DNA of 64,000 nt. Origin: Rufibacter tibetensis (GTDB lineage: Bacteria; Bacteroidota; Bacteroidia; Cytophagales; Hymenobacteraceae). The stretch is taken from the NCBI RefSeq assembly GCF_001310085.1, contig NZ_CP012643.1, positions 4,656,001 through 4,720,000 on the forward strand. The letters run 5' to 3'. A program made the translations under genes and the position numbers. The notes under the pieces were generated by a model, which was given only the letters and a program-made list of their open reading frames with translations, was not told the origin of the DNA and made no database searches. Positions 19,976 through 54,028 of the stretch are shown piece after piece (within the stretch, counting starts at the first letter, position 1; each line of letters opens with the position of its first letter).

Positions 19976-19991
19976 ATTTTAAATACACGCT

Positions 19992-20481
19992 AACTACGGG
20001 ATATATGGAACAACTACGGTTATTGGCACTATGGATGGAAGTCTATCTATCCTTTTCAAACCTAAGTTTGAGTGGGTATGTACTAATCTATGTACCCTTA
20101 CCATACAATATATGATTATACAATATATGTAAATTCCTTAATCATATACCTTCTCACACCCATTTTCTTGCACTTATCACATATAAGCTGAGTTTCAATC
20201 AATTCATTGATGCTTGTAATACTATACTCTTGTATCCCTGGGGCATGAATTCTCATTTATGAGCAGTTTTAATCTTTGAACTTGGCACACCTGAAGGTAA
20301 AAGTGATAAAGGTTTAACCGTAACTATTCGGGTAAATCCGAATATAAGCGGTTATATGCGGATAGATTCGAAATCTGCTTATTATTAGCTTGCCTAAACA
20401 AACCTGAGTTGAAGGAGCCACTTCCCTGACTTAATCAATTTCAAAGCCAAACAAGAATTTAAAGCTTAGTTAAGGAAACGG
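19992..20481 (-). repeat. Internal second copy of the array leader (attI-like)
   Basis: Bases 19992-20192 are identical to 33510-33710, and similarity (roughly three quarters by eye) continues to about 20481, matching 33999. At the left edge both copies end ...CCCGTAGTT on the minus strand and then differ (GTTAGCG here, GTTGTGC there), the exact place where integron cassettes join. The inverted repeat of the other copy is present but degraded (CCGTAACTATTCGG then CCGAATA). No complete gene is visible in these 490 bp. It marks either fusion of two arrays or an older leader displaced into the array. Confidence 0.8.
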
Positions 20482-21631: not shown

Positions 21632-21696
21632 TAAATAACTGTTTCGTAAAAGCAGAGGCGATGTGGCCGTAGCATGGCTCAGGCACCTTGTTGGGT
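21632..21696 (-). repeat. attC-like site, partly decayed
   Basis: Keeps GTTGGGT at the right and AAC in AATAACTG at the left, but the loop is reduced to GTGGCCGTAGC. Confidence 0.6.
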
Positions 21697-22080
21697 CTTT
21701 GCTCTGTTTTTGTTTTTTCTTTTAGCAAACCCACCACCCATTGCACCAACTAATGCAGCGAGTAAAGAATTGAAAATTACTGCCGTTACCCAAAAAGCTA
21801 CAGTCATCTCATAGTCTGTACCAATATTAGCTTTAAGATAGGTAGAAATTAATAAACCTATGGTTGCCTCAAAGAATCCCATGAAAACAGCATATACTAC
21901 CCCTTTGCTAAATCTCGACACCCTTGTCACTAGATAAGCAACTGTGCCATATATAAGATATGAAAATGGAGATAGTAAACCGTAATTGAAAGCAAACTGC
22001 CTTGAAGCAATAGAACCTAATGTATCGAGTATAACAACCGCTAAAAATCCACTTATCAAAATCTTAAATGTACCCTTCAT
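21679..22080 (-). CDS. Small polytopic membrane protein (duplicated cassette gene, copy 2)
   Basis: 133 residues, about nine in ten identical by eye to the protein at 1012-1413, including the C-terminal basic patch and the attC-encoded QQGA end. Differences are scattered and conservative (SESNFSKG to RVSRFSKG, for example), so both copies were probably kept under selection. Likely an inner-membrane protein with four helices; family not recognised. Confidence 0.75.
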   Translation of the reverse strand: MKGTFKILISGFLAVVILDTLGSIASRQFAFNYGLLSPFSYLIYGTVAYLVTRVSRFSKGVVYAVFMGFFEATIGLLISTYLKANIGTDYEMTVAFWVTAVIFNSLLAALVGAMGGGFAKRKNKNRAKTQQGA

Positions 22081-31796: not shown

Positions 31797-31846
31797 ACAA
31801 CTACTGTATATAAGGAGCAGTTCCGCTTATTGGCACTGTAGCTCTA
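31797..31846 (-). repeat. attC-like site, third class, related to the leader end
   Basis: AACTACTGTATATAAGGAGC then CGCTTATTGGCACTGTAG. CTAC..GT and AATAAG pair with CTTATA and AC.GTAG with bulges. It aligns with the last 45 bp of the leader at 33510 (AACTACGGGATATATGG ... TTATTGGCACTATGG), so leader end and this site share ancestry. It overlaps the end of the Imm53 gene. Confidence 0.65.
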
Positions 31847-32849: not shown

Positions 32850-32900
32850 CATAACGTTTTGGCTAAAAAGCGTTTTAATGCTTTTTAGGTGTTGTTGTGG
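32850..32900 (-). repeat. attC-like site, short class
   Basis: 51 bp, ATAACG to GTTGTGG, arms GGCTAAAAAGCG / TGCTTTTTAGG around TTTTAA; nearly perfect hairpin. Confidence 0.82.
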
Positions 32901-32904
32901 TAAG

Positions 32905-33495
32905 TTATTCACAAAAATCTTCTTTCATCTTGCTAATAACTTCGGTACCAAACTTTTCCTTCATTCCCAATTGCTCTGCTTTTTCTATATCTCTGCAAGC
33001 TGAAGCGGTTCTACCCATACCATGGTATGCCACTGCTCTATTCGCATAAATTTCAGGCAAAGTAGGTTTGATTTCAACGGCTCTATTAAAATCTTCTAAT
33101 GCAGATGTAAATTGGTATGCATGAGCGTATGCTAACCCTCTGTTTAGAAGTGCAGGAATATAGTCTTCATCGATTTGAAGACATCTGCCAAAATCAATTA
33201 TAGCTTCTTGGTTGTCTCCTAAGCGTTGATAGGCGACACCTCTATTTAAGTATAATTGTATATTGCCGCCATACTTTTTCTCTGCTAGGTTGAATTTTTG
33301 CATTGCTTCAGGGATTTTACCTTCTTTCAGCAATTTTATGGCTTCTTGAAGTATTGGATGCTTATCCCATTCAAAACTGCCTGCCACTTCTTCATCAGCA
33401 TCATGGTATTGGACATTATCCTCCACTTTGACAGATTCGTCATTACAGCTTAAAATGGCACCTATTATTAATAGGCATAGGATTCGTATTTTCAT
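32905..33495 (-). CDS. TPR-repeat lipoprotein (first cassette)
   Basis: 196 residues from the ATG at 33495 (MKIRILCLLIIGAILSC), signal peptide and lipobox; an upstream in-frame start would lie inside the leader and is rejected. At least three tetratricopeptide repeats occupy about 60-165 (for example YLNRGVAYQRLGDNQEAIIDFGRCLQI and ALLNRGLAYAHAYQFTSALEDF). Probably a lipid-anchored scaffold. As the first gene after the leader it should be the most recent acquisition. Confidence 0.8.
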   Translation of the reverse strand: MKIRILCLLIIGAILSCNDESVKVEDNVQYHDADEEVAGSFEWDKHPILQEAIKLLKEGKIPEAMQKFNLAEKKYGGNIQLYLNRGVAYQRLGDNQEAIIDFGRCLQIDEDYIPALLNRGLAYAHAYQFTSALEDFNRAVEIKPTLPEIYANRAVAYHGMGRTASACRDIEKAEQLGMKEKFGTEVISKMKEDFCE

Positions 33496-33574
33496 TTTTA
33501 ATTTAGCACAACTACGGGATATATGGAACAACTACGGTTATTGGCACTATGGATGGAAGTCTATCTATCCTTTT

Positions 33575-33582
33575 CAAACCTA
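33575..33582 (-). promoter_or_regulatory. Candidate -7 element of the cassette promoter
   Basis: On the minus strand this reads TAGGTTTG, matching the Bacteroidota TAnnTTTG box, about 80 bp before the first cassette start and pointing into the array. It is conserved in the second leader copy. No convincing -33 box is seen, so this is tentative. Confidence 0.3.
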
Positions 33583-33832
33583 AGTTTGAGTGGGTATGTA
33601 CTAATCTATGTACCCTTACCATACAATATATGATTATACAATATATGTAAATTCCTTAATCATATACCTTCTCACACCCATTTTCTTGCACTTATCACAT
33701 ATAAGCTGAGCTTCAAACAAATCCATGATGATTATTATACTTCATTCTTTAATCCAAGAGGCATGGATTCTCTTTCATGAGCGGTTTCAGTCGTGGAACT
33801 TGGCACACCTGAAGATTAAAGTAACTAATATT

Positions 33833-33872
33833 TATCCGTAACTATTCGGGTATATCCGAATAGTTACGGATA
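33833..33872. promoter_or_regulatory. Perfect 17-bp inverted repeat in the leader
   Basis: TATCCGTAACTATTCGG, a 6-base spacer GTATAT, and its exact reverse complement. It lies between the array and the recombinase gene. The copy near 20310 keeps only the left arm and part of the right. It could be a recombinase crossover site, since serine recombinases bind such dyads, or an operator. Confidence 0.65.
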
Positions 33873-34083
33873 TAAGCGGATAGATTTGGAATCTGCTAGA
33901 TAATAGCTTGTCTTATCAAACATTAGTTGAACTGGGCACTACTTTCCTGATTGAATCAATTTCAAAAGCTGAATAAGAACTTAAAGCTTAGTTAAAGAAA
34001 CGAATGTATACCCTACTCCCCTACCCTCTTTTCACGATAGACGCTGGTTTGCAGCAATGGCACTTCAAAAAGTAAAGAAACTC

Positions 34084-34134
34084 AGTTAAATATTCAAAGT
34101 AATTTTATATATTTGCATAACGAGATATTTAACT
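34084..34134 (+). promoter_or_regulatory. Promoter and flanking inverted repeat of the serine recombinase
   Basis: TATATTTG at 34108-34115 fits the Bacteroidota -7 box. It lies midway between AGTTAAATAT (34084) and its exact complement ATATTTAACT (34125), 13 bp before the ATG. The arrangement suggests self-regulation by the recombinase or another dimer. Confidence 0.5.
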
Positions 34135-34146
34135 AAATCCCTCTTT

Positions 34147-34719
34147 ATGCTAATAGGCTACGCCAGGATTTCCACAATTCTTCAGAATGCTGATTTGCAA
34201 CACGACACGCTCTCTCTTGCTGGGTGCGAAAAAATATTCACCGATAAGATTTCAGGTACTGTCACGGAGAGACCTGCTCTAACTAAGGTGAAGGAGATTC
34301 TGAGACGTGGGGATACTTTGGTGGTATGGCGGTTGGATAGATTAGGCAGGTCATTGAAAGACCTTATAGATTGGATGAACTACCTGGAGAGCGAAGGCAT
34401 AGCCCTGAAAAGTTTGCAGGAGTCCATAGATACCAGCACCGCCACAGGAAAGCTGGTATTCCACATCTTCGCCTCCATGGCTGAGTTCGAGCGGAACCTT
34501 ATAAAAGAACGCACAATGGCTGGTCTTTCTGCTGCCAGAGCTAGGGGTCGTGTGGGTGGTCGCCCAAAGAAGATGAACGAGGACAAGAGAAAGCTCGCTG
34601 TTCGTCTTTATAATGAGAAACACCATTCAATAGATGCTATCTGTGAGATGATGGGTATTTCAAAGCCTACTCTTTACAGCTATGTGAAAAGCGAATCGCG
34701 AAATTTAGAAATCAATTGA
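34147..34719 (+). CDS. Small serine recombinase (resolvase/invertase family)
   Basis: 190 residues, full length for the family. The catalytic domain starts IGYARIST with nucleophile Ser9 and Arg7; WRLDRLGRSLKDL supplies Arg65 and Arg68, and the E-helix reads FHIFASMAEFERNLIKERT. After the RGRVGGRPKKM linker a Hin-type helix-turn-helix (IDAICEMMGISKPTLYSYV) ends the protein. It is divergent from the cassette array and separated from it only by the leader, exactly where an integron would have intI. Such enzymes invert or resolve DNA at dyad sites. Whether it acts on the array is not known. Confidence 0.93.
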   Translation: MLIGYARISTILQNADLQHDTLSLAGCEKIFTDKISGTVTERPALTKVKEILRRGDTLVVWRLDRLGRSLKDLIDWMNYLESEGIALKSLQESIDTSTATGKLVFHIFASMAEFERNLIKERTMAGLSAARARGRVGGRPKKMNEDKRKLAVRLYNEKHHSIDAICEMMGISKPTLYSYVKSESRNLEIN

Positions 34720-34806: not shown

Positions 34807-35046
34807 TCACTGTTCAGGTGTTTCTCCTTCTTTTTTCTTTCTGCCTCGGTAGCCTCCCCGCCCGCTTTTCTTCTCCAGCTCACCGTTCTTAGCGTTGGCA
34901 ATAAGGATTTCTATTTCATTCAGCACAATCCGCTGGTTGTTGACGAACTTGTCTAGCTGGCTTATCATGGCCTCCAGCAAATCCTTGTTCTTCTGCGCTT
35001 CCTTCAGGGTCTGTACAATCACATCAATATCCGTTGTCTTACCCAT
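34807..35046 (-). CDS. Small helical protein with basic tail
   Basis: 79 residues: a single long helix or coiled coil (VIVQTLKEAQKNKDLLEAMISQLDKFVNNQRIVLNEIEILIANAK) followed by a Gly/Arg/Lys-rich tail (KKSGRGGYRGRKKK) typical of nucleic-acid binding. Convergent with the recombinase, divergent from the methyltransferase. Function unknown. Confidence 0.6.
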   Translation of the reverse strand: MGKTTDIDVIVQTLKEAQKNKDLLEAMISQLDKFVNNQRIVLNEIEILIANAKNGELEKKSGRGGYRGRKKKEGETPEQ

Positions 35047-35115
35047 AGCTTTGCTTCTATATTTTATTTTGATTATTTATGCAATGATAACATATTTAAT
35101 CAAAAGCTGAATCAG

Positions 35116-36060
35116 TTGAACGTTCTAAGTTTGTTTGATGGCATCAGTTGCGGCAGGCTCGCCCTGCAATCATCGGGAATCAAGATTAACAGATATTTCG
35201 CAAGCGAAATAGACAGTGCCGCCATTCATGTATCAAAGAAGAATTTCCCTGACACAATCCATATTGGTGACGTATCAAAGGTGTCTTTCAAAGACGGTCG
35301 TTTGATAACCGAGACTGGAACGTTTGATACAGGTTTGATAGACCTGGTTATTGGCGGACCTCCCTGCCAGTCTTTTTCAAAGCGTGGCAATCAGATGAAC
35401 TTTGATGATAGCAGGGGCAAACTTTTCCATGAGTTTGAGCGGCTTCTAAAAGAAACCAAAGCCCCCCTGTTTCTGATGGAGAACGTGAAGATGAACAGAA
35501 AGCACCAGGATGTAATCAGCGGTATATTAGGTGTTGAACCCATCGAGATAAACTCTGCCCTGGTGACCGCACAGAACAGGGCAAGGCTCTACTGGACCAA
35601 CATCGCAAACGTACAGCAACCCGCTGACAAAGGGATAAGGTTGCAGGAAATACTTGAAAGCGGTTATACCGAGAAGGAGAAGTCTTTCTGCATCACCGCC
35701 ACCTACGGCAATGCCACGGTCCAGAACTACTTCATCAACAGCGAGAGGCAGCTCAAATTCATCCACCCCGTCAAAAAGAACGGCAGCAGGTATTACCTGC
35801 ACGACAGAATCCAAGTAGATATCTACCCAGATAAAGGACTTGAGCGAAACTACTACAGCCTCCAACTTCTAAAACCTTATACTACCAGACTTTCCTGTGC
35901 GGAGGTGGAGAGACTTCAGGGTATACCTGTCGGCTATACTGAGGGCGTTCCAAACCACCAGCGGTACAAACTCATAGGCAATGCCTGGACCGTGCCCGTA
36001 ATCTCCCACATCTTCACAGGTATAAGTTGTGACACTGTAGCTAATGGCTGCTTTCAGTAA
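35116..36060 (+). CDS. DNA (cytosine-5) methyltransferase, orphan
   Basis: 314 residues from a TTG start that places motif I (VLSLFDGISCGRLAL) at the N-terminus. Motif IV is GGPPCQSFSKRGNQ with catalytic Cys84, motif VI MENVKMN (Glu122), motif VIII AQNRARLYW, and motifs IX-X ERLQGIP ... IGNAWTVPVI. Complete for a compact phage-type enzyme. It transfers a methyl group from SAM to cytosine C5. No restriction enzyme is adjacent, though nuclease genes lie 2-4 kb downstream. Target site unknown. Confidence 0.92.
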   Translation: MNVLSLFDGISCGRLALQSSGIKINRYFASEIDSAAIHVSKKNFPDTIHIGDVSKVSFKDGRLITETGTFDTGLIDLVIGGPPCQSFSKRGNQMNFDDSRGKLFHEFERLLKETKAPLFLMENVKMNRKHQDVISGILGVEPIEINSALVTAQNRARLYWTNIANVQQPADKGIRLQEILESGYTEKEKSFCITATYGNATVQNYFINSERQLKFIHPVKKNGSRYYLHDRIQVDIYPDKGLERNYYSLQLLKPYTTRLSCAEVERLQGIPVGYTEGVPNHQRYKLIGNAWTVPVISHIFTGISCDTVANGCFQ

Positions 36061-53602: not shown

Positions 53603-54028
53603 AAGTGTTAAAAATGCAAGAATTTATTTGGCTCCTATTTACAAATTTGACCGTATATTAACATGATTCTAACGGCAGTATCTGTTACGAAACCTGTTAC
53701 AAAACCACATAACTTACTGATTATAAATATGTATCACTTTCTGCATCGGAAAGTAAAATATAATCTTATTTAATAGGATAGATTAAAATAAAAAGTTTAA
53801 ACAAAAGAGAACCTATGTCTTATTGAGATAATAAGTTACAGGTTACCTTTTGTTTAGACTTGTTTGATAGTTCAATATATCCCTACAAACTTTAAATCCT
53901 ACAACATATTTGATTGGTACAGTCTTGAGGTACTATCAAAAGTTAACCCTGTACTATGTACGTTGGTTTAACCCAAAATAAATTAAGGGCACATAAGCTC
54001 AATTCGTTCCTTCTACATCAATCTACAG
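53603..54028. other. 426 bp AT-rich spacer, no gene seen
   Basis: Contains the near-repeat GTTACGAAACCTGTTACAAAACC and other A/T-rich stretches. No tRNA cloverleaf or ORF of coding character was found by eye. Confidence 0.45.

Follow-up and report, generated by a model that had tools for sequence, protein, structure and literature searches.

Genomic organization of the array head

The window analyzed here comprises 64,000 nucleotides of the Rufibacter tibetensis genome (contig NZ_CP012643.1, termed C1, positions 4,656,001 to 4,720,000). An attC array occupies positions 314-32898 of the window and runs on leftward past it to about C1:4651100. With the covariance model R1, 21 attC sites on the window's + strand scored E<0.01; a hairpin scan added further short ones. 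The attC hairpins show compensatory changes at 8 of 11 pairs and keep one orientation throughout the array; their + (bottom) strand folds better, and the cassette genes lie on the - strand. To the right of 34 kb in the window, R1 found no attC site, including among the repeats located there. The first cassette contains an attC site at 32851-32898 (+, R1 28.6 bits, E 1.9e-5) and a TPR-like gene, which we read from the open reading frame list at 32905-33531 on the - strand, its ATG start probably being at 33495. One cassette gene is duplicated within the array (998-1297 and 21665-21964, about 87% identical).

At the head of the array, positions 33509-33555 on the - strand matched the sequence model R2 with 39.5 bits (E 2.1e-10). 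R2 was built solely from attI sites linked to a tyrosine recombinase, termed TR, and the same site lies 3' of the TR gene on the plasmid contig C2. The attI-like leader that the first-pass annotation had proposed is therefore a genuine attI, namely that of the TR system. Thus, the locus combines attC sites with a conserved hairpin in one orientation and an attI as the place of cassette insertion, as in integrons. A spacer of about 450 nt (33556-34002) follows on the 5' side of attI. R2 also matched an internal attI copy at 19989-20037 (-), which together with its own spacer spans 19989-20480. A search of the genome's own DNA aligned 33510-34002 with 19992-20480, and by this search and pairwise BLAST the two spacers are about 86-87% identical. 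A second internal attI copy is located at 31798-31837 (-, R2 39.9 bits). These internal copies, one of them with the 450-nt spacer, suggest either fused arrays or attI sites carried within cassettes. We also looked at the right end of the recombinase module for a continuation of the internal attI spacer and found none.

The serine recombinase gene (34147-34719, +) diverges from this array head, as first annotated. Its product of 190 aa bears the Pfam Resolvase domain (PF00239, 2.1e-43) and HTH_7 (9.3e-9), and the complete catalytic set of Arg7, Ser9, Arg65 and Arg68, which together define a small serine recombinase of the resolvase/invertase type. Resolvase is the only catalytic domain present, and the tyrosine recombinase domain characteristic of IntI is missing. 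The nearest solved structures are the DNA-invertases 4m6f and 3uj3 (1.5e-50), followed by gamma-delta resolvase (3.4e-29) and Tn3 resolvases; the protein also matched the phrog_125 DNA invertase (1.2e-69). A plasmid search returned 3,014 records with a homologue, mainly from unrelated hosts, among them Staphylococcus, Klebsiella and Enterobacter. Close homologues occur in just four of the 16 genomes of the host genus.

Aligning orthologues from Rufibacter, Pontibacter, Adhaeribacter and Cesiribacter revealed a conserved region upstream of the recombinase gene (33993-34146), comprising a putative promoter and the inverted arms AGTTAAATAT (34084-34093) and ATATTTAACT (34125-34134). The likeness ends about 150 nt before the ATG, with unrelated sequence beyond. 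The region is res-like and may be a res site. A second copy was sought elsewhere in the genome and none was found, and a window scan tolerating up to three mismatches gave a single match to its conserved motif AACGAGATATTTAACT. The putative recombinase thus shares the Resolvase domain, HTH_7, the Ser/Arg set, size and a conserved upstream region with Gin/Hin invertases and Tn3/gamma-delta resolvases, but differs from them in that no second recombination site was found in the genome.

The conserved upstream module starts (at about 33,993) where the duplicated attI spacer stops, so that the attI/array module and the recombinase module abut at about 34,000. Hence, the gene and the array are not separated only by the leader, as had been described; the duplicated spacer of about 450 nt and the conserved region of about 150 nt also intervene. 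Downstream of the recombinase gene, a 79-aa ORF (-) and a C5 DNA methylase gene (+) occupy 34807-36060. A tblastn search showed that both accompany the recombinase in two Pontibacter loci (L019 and L021), which are attC-free according to the covariance model.

Both modules belong to one genomic island. To the left of the array lie mnmE and then a gene for a 362-aa tyrosine integrase (C1:4638316-4639404). The terminal 18 nt of mnmE (TTTTGCATCGGCAAGTAA) reappear with two mismatches at 53739-53756 as TTCTGCATCGGAAAGTAA (16/18 identical), a repeat that BLAST missed and an approximate 18-nt search recovered. Ordinary chromosomal genes follow to its right from 55391. The repeat therefore places the array and the recombinase within an island of about 72 kb inserted in the 3' end of mnmE/trmE, spanning C1:4637358-4709756 (to window position 53756). 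We considered the 362-aa enzyme as the cognate integrase of the array and rejected it, as it scored merely 56.7 bits against TIGR02249; we assigned it as the island's own integrase.

A tyrosine recombinase with the cognate attI and attC sites

TR is a protein of 484 aa encoded on C2 at 108490-109944 (L031:8491-9945, - strand in L031) and carries PF00589 (1.2e-39). Matches of the same attC model adjoin its gene at C2:103153-107854. The first-pass annotation had itself named the finding that would speak against a serine-type integrase, namely an integrase gene elsewhere in the genome with the cognate attI and attC sites to match. The TR locus is such a case, since this tyrosine recombinase carries both. 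In 30 of 30 TR loci of the family, the TR stop codon is followed at a distance of 100-150 nt by a conserved attI of about 50 nt, and in most of these loci attC sites lie on the same side of TR as attI. The TR gene runs in the same direction as the cassettes, with its 3' end toward attI. In the classical integron, it is the gene diverging from attI that encodes the integrase. Because the end of the TR gene faces attI, integrase genes of this lineage are not arranged divergently from it, and the earlier argument that the serine recombinase diverges just as intI does loses its footing.

TR and attC sites co-occur closely. TR is present in 65 of the 77 attC-positive genomes of the family as opposed to one of the 73 attC-negative genomes (Fisher p 9e-29). 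All 16 genomes of the host genus contain both TR and attC arrays, and TR was found in 66 of the 150 family genomes (relatives L110-L139).

Comparison of orthologous heads indicated where cassettes are exchanged. In informative pairs, at heads with and without an adjacent TR gene, homology ends between -4 and +9 nt from the attI end, and different cassettes follow. Three heads devoid of TR (L238, L250 and L281) are homologous across three species over 1.3 kb, and their cassettes differ from attI onward. As homology stops at attI, also at TR-less heads, cassettes turn over at attI, and turnover at the TR-less heads points to action in trans. Presumably, TR would drive this turnover in trans, as far as the sequence comparisons indicate.

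TR consists of a tyrosine recombinase core with an IntI-like end and an N-terminal extension of about 200 aa, which AlphaFold predicted as two similar alpha/beta units. Foldseek returned the integron integrase IntI4 (2a3v) as the top PDB fold match; this match is merely supportive because the AlphaFold model is weak in the catalytic part, with pLDDT of 30-45 over much of it. An additional (patch) domain is regarded as necessary for the activity of IntI. Residues 180-247 of IntI4 (68 residues) face 25 residues in TR, and the same gap appears against TIGR02249; therefore, the IntI-specific patch domain is missing from TR. Its TIGR02249 score of 199.4 bits is below the curated integron-integrase cut-off of 265 bits, and no match above this cut-off exists anywhere in the genome, including the array itself. 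Despite the missing patch, genuine attI/attC arrays are headed by TR, the predicted integrase, throughout the host genus.

Serine recombinases recur on one side of attI

Across the 16 genomes of the host genus, we cross-tabulated 122 matches to attI with 82 matches to the Resolvase domain. Six of the 82 serine recombinases, belonging to three subfamilies only about 30% identical to each other, lie within 700 bp of an attI, all of them on the TR (5') side. On the cassette (3') side, there were no serine recombinases within 5 kb of an attI in these genomes. The number of neighbors expected on the TR side is 0.08 under a uniform distribution and about 0.4 from the local density at 700-4000 bp (p 6e-6); collapsing the six cases to three subfamilies gives p of about 0.009 against the local background.

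Subfamily A comprises the window's recombinase and that of G032, both divergent from attI; outside the genus, it is divergent in G028 and codirectional at 1 kb in G114. Subfamily B stands beside attI in G000 and G012, also divergently. Subfamily C is codirectional in G060 and G027, representing two species, at 36-63 nt from attI, which is exactly the place of TR. A second array head in the R. tibetensis genome itself (L046:8514-12868, C1:1523.5-1527.9 kb) has a subfamily B serine recombinase divergent from its attI.

As the first-pass annotation had proposed, we asked whether homologues of the window's recombinase repeatedly neighbor such arrays. Four of the 13 close homologues have an attI within 1.5 kb, where 0.07 would be expected, and two further subfamilies show the same neighborhood. 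A check of the close homologues for attC alone found nothing nearby, and the association emerged once the attI model was used. No attI lies near the other serine recombinases, among them most close homologues of the window's enzyme. The outer edge of the recombinase's conserved upstream region marks the end of the attI unit both in the window and in G028.

Discussion

The first-pass annotation had raised the prospect of cassettes moved by a serine enzyme. Our analysis removes this claim and uncovers instead an integron-like system that every one of the 16 genomes searched from a single Bacteroidota genus contains. We consider it very probable that the serine enzyme is a resolvase/invertase neighbor residing on the island, that the cassettes of an orphan array are moved by TR in trans, and that the two modules abut, probably owing to a lodging preference. 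The recombinase would have as its substrate the res-like region that immediately precedes its gene. The array possesses an attI and no integrase gene of its own, and TR, encoded on C2, would insert cassettes at attI and excise them at attC, either now or formerly. Class 1 integrons are known to lodge at res sites. By analogy, integron units of the present kind may tend to lodge beside resolvase modules, which probably accounts for the adjacency. Three observations run counter to this explanation, namely the adjacency above chance, subfamily C in the place of TR, and the absence from TR of the domain that IntI is held to require.

That two unrelated island modules came to adjoin purely by chance, without any preference in insertion, had been allowed for from the outset, and we regard it as unlikely. 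Arrays and serine recombinases are both common in genomic islands, only six of the 122 attI sites are involved, and the probability is not extreme once these are collapsed to three families. Plain chance is nonetheless at odds with six of 82 recombinases next to attI, all six 5' and none 3' of it, with the excess among the close homologues, and with an attI unit that stops precisely at the edge of the recombinase's upstream region in two genomes. Since such modules adjoin more often than plain chance would allow, we favor the view that integron units insert preferentially in resolvase neighborhoods.

A functional partnership between serine recombinases and integrase-less attI heads, by auxiliary resolution or as an alternative catalyst, would account for the repeated presence of three unrelated subfamilies on the integrase side of attI; we hold it to be improbable. 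Its more specific form, in which the serine recombinase assists attI heads by resolving, for instance, cassette circles or cointegrates made by TR, is likewise improbable. Subfamilies B and C do keep their attI neighborhood in two species each while the cassettes differ, but most attI heads have no serine recombinase gene, and the low identity between the subfamilies also speaks against this reading.

It is equally hard to credit that the enzyme deletes or inverts the array head, as had been suggested for a resolvase at this position. The nearest solved relatives being DNA-invertases and the res-like region facing the array head would both accord with such a function, but that region is single-copy in the genome, with AACGAGATATTTAACT found once in the window at up to three mismatches, and there is therefore no visible partner site for deletion or inversion.

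Least probable of all is that the serine recombinase is the integrase of the array: three subfamilies recur 5' of attI and two species have them codirectionally in close proximity, but a cognate TR with the same attI and attC exists in this genome and throughout the genus, the recombinase family is restricted to few of the genomes that all carry arrays, cassettes also turn over at TR-less heads that have no serine recombinase, and most members of these serine families have no attI neighbor.

A close parallel to the lodging of an integron unit beside a resolvase module is SGI1 with its In104 integron. The attachment locus of SGI1 is likewise the 3' end of mnmE/trmE; the present island thus shares a target gene with SGI1 but is found in Bacteroidota. 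In both islands, one end carries a tyrosine integrase, and a serine resolvase gene has an integron a short way upstream. In the window, however, the upstream module of the recombinase looks intact, the host is a member of Bacteroidota, and the array is not of class 1. The In104 integron cluster of SGI1 is situated upstream of the resolvase start at a distance of 71 bp, where res-hunting transposition presumably placed it (PMC12217951).

The system resembles chromosomal integrons and CALIN arrays (PMC9024848) in its covarying attC hairpins, attI, cassettes in one direction, and possible action of an integrase in trans. It differs from them by a TR without the IntI patch and with an N-terminal extension of about 200 aa, by the gene end pointing toward attI, and by many attI heads per genome. 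Spirochaete "reverse-orientation" integrons (PMC9668308) also have their integrase gene opposite to the classical divergent arrangement, as TR does; the likeness lies in gene orientation, whereas the protein is a different one. Using IntegronFinder 2.0, one complete integron was reported in Bacteroidetes proper, in Salinibacter (PMC9024848). An earlier survey selected for the additional domain (PMC2426708); because TR lacks it, surveys requiring the patch domain would miss such systems. Our literature search found no description of this TR/attI/attC system, which does not in itself prove that none exists. Judged from its sequences, the system may be a new integron variant worth studying in its own right.

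With it, recombination in trans could be tested directly at dispersed attI heads, as could the question whether integron units prefer resolvase sites outside class 1/Tn402. The attI heads we collected (L210-L329, e.g., L248, L249 and L275) number roughly eight per genome on average, most of them without an integrase. The attI units occupy intergenic places, often after terminators. Many heads share a leader of about 70 nt beginning with CTATATAGTATATTCGG, which resembles a diverged, inverted attI.
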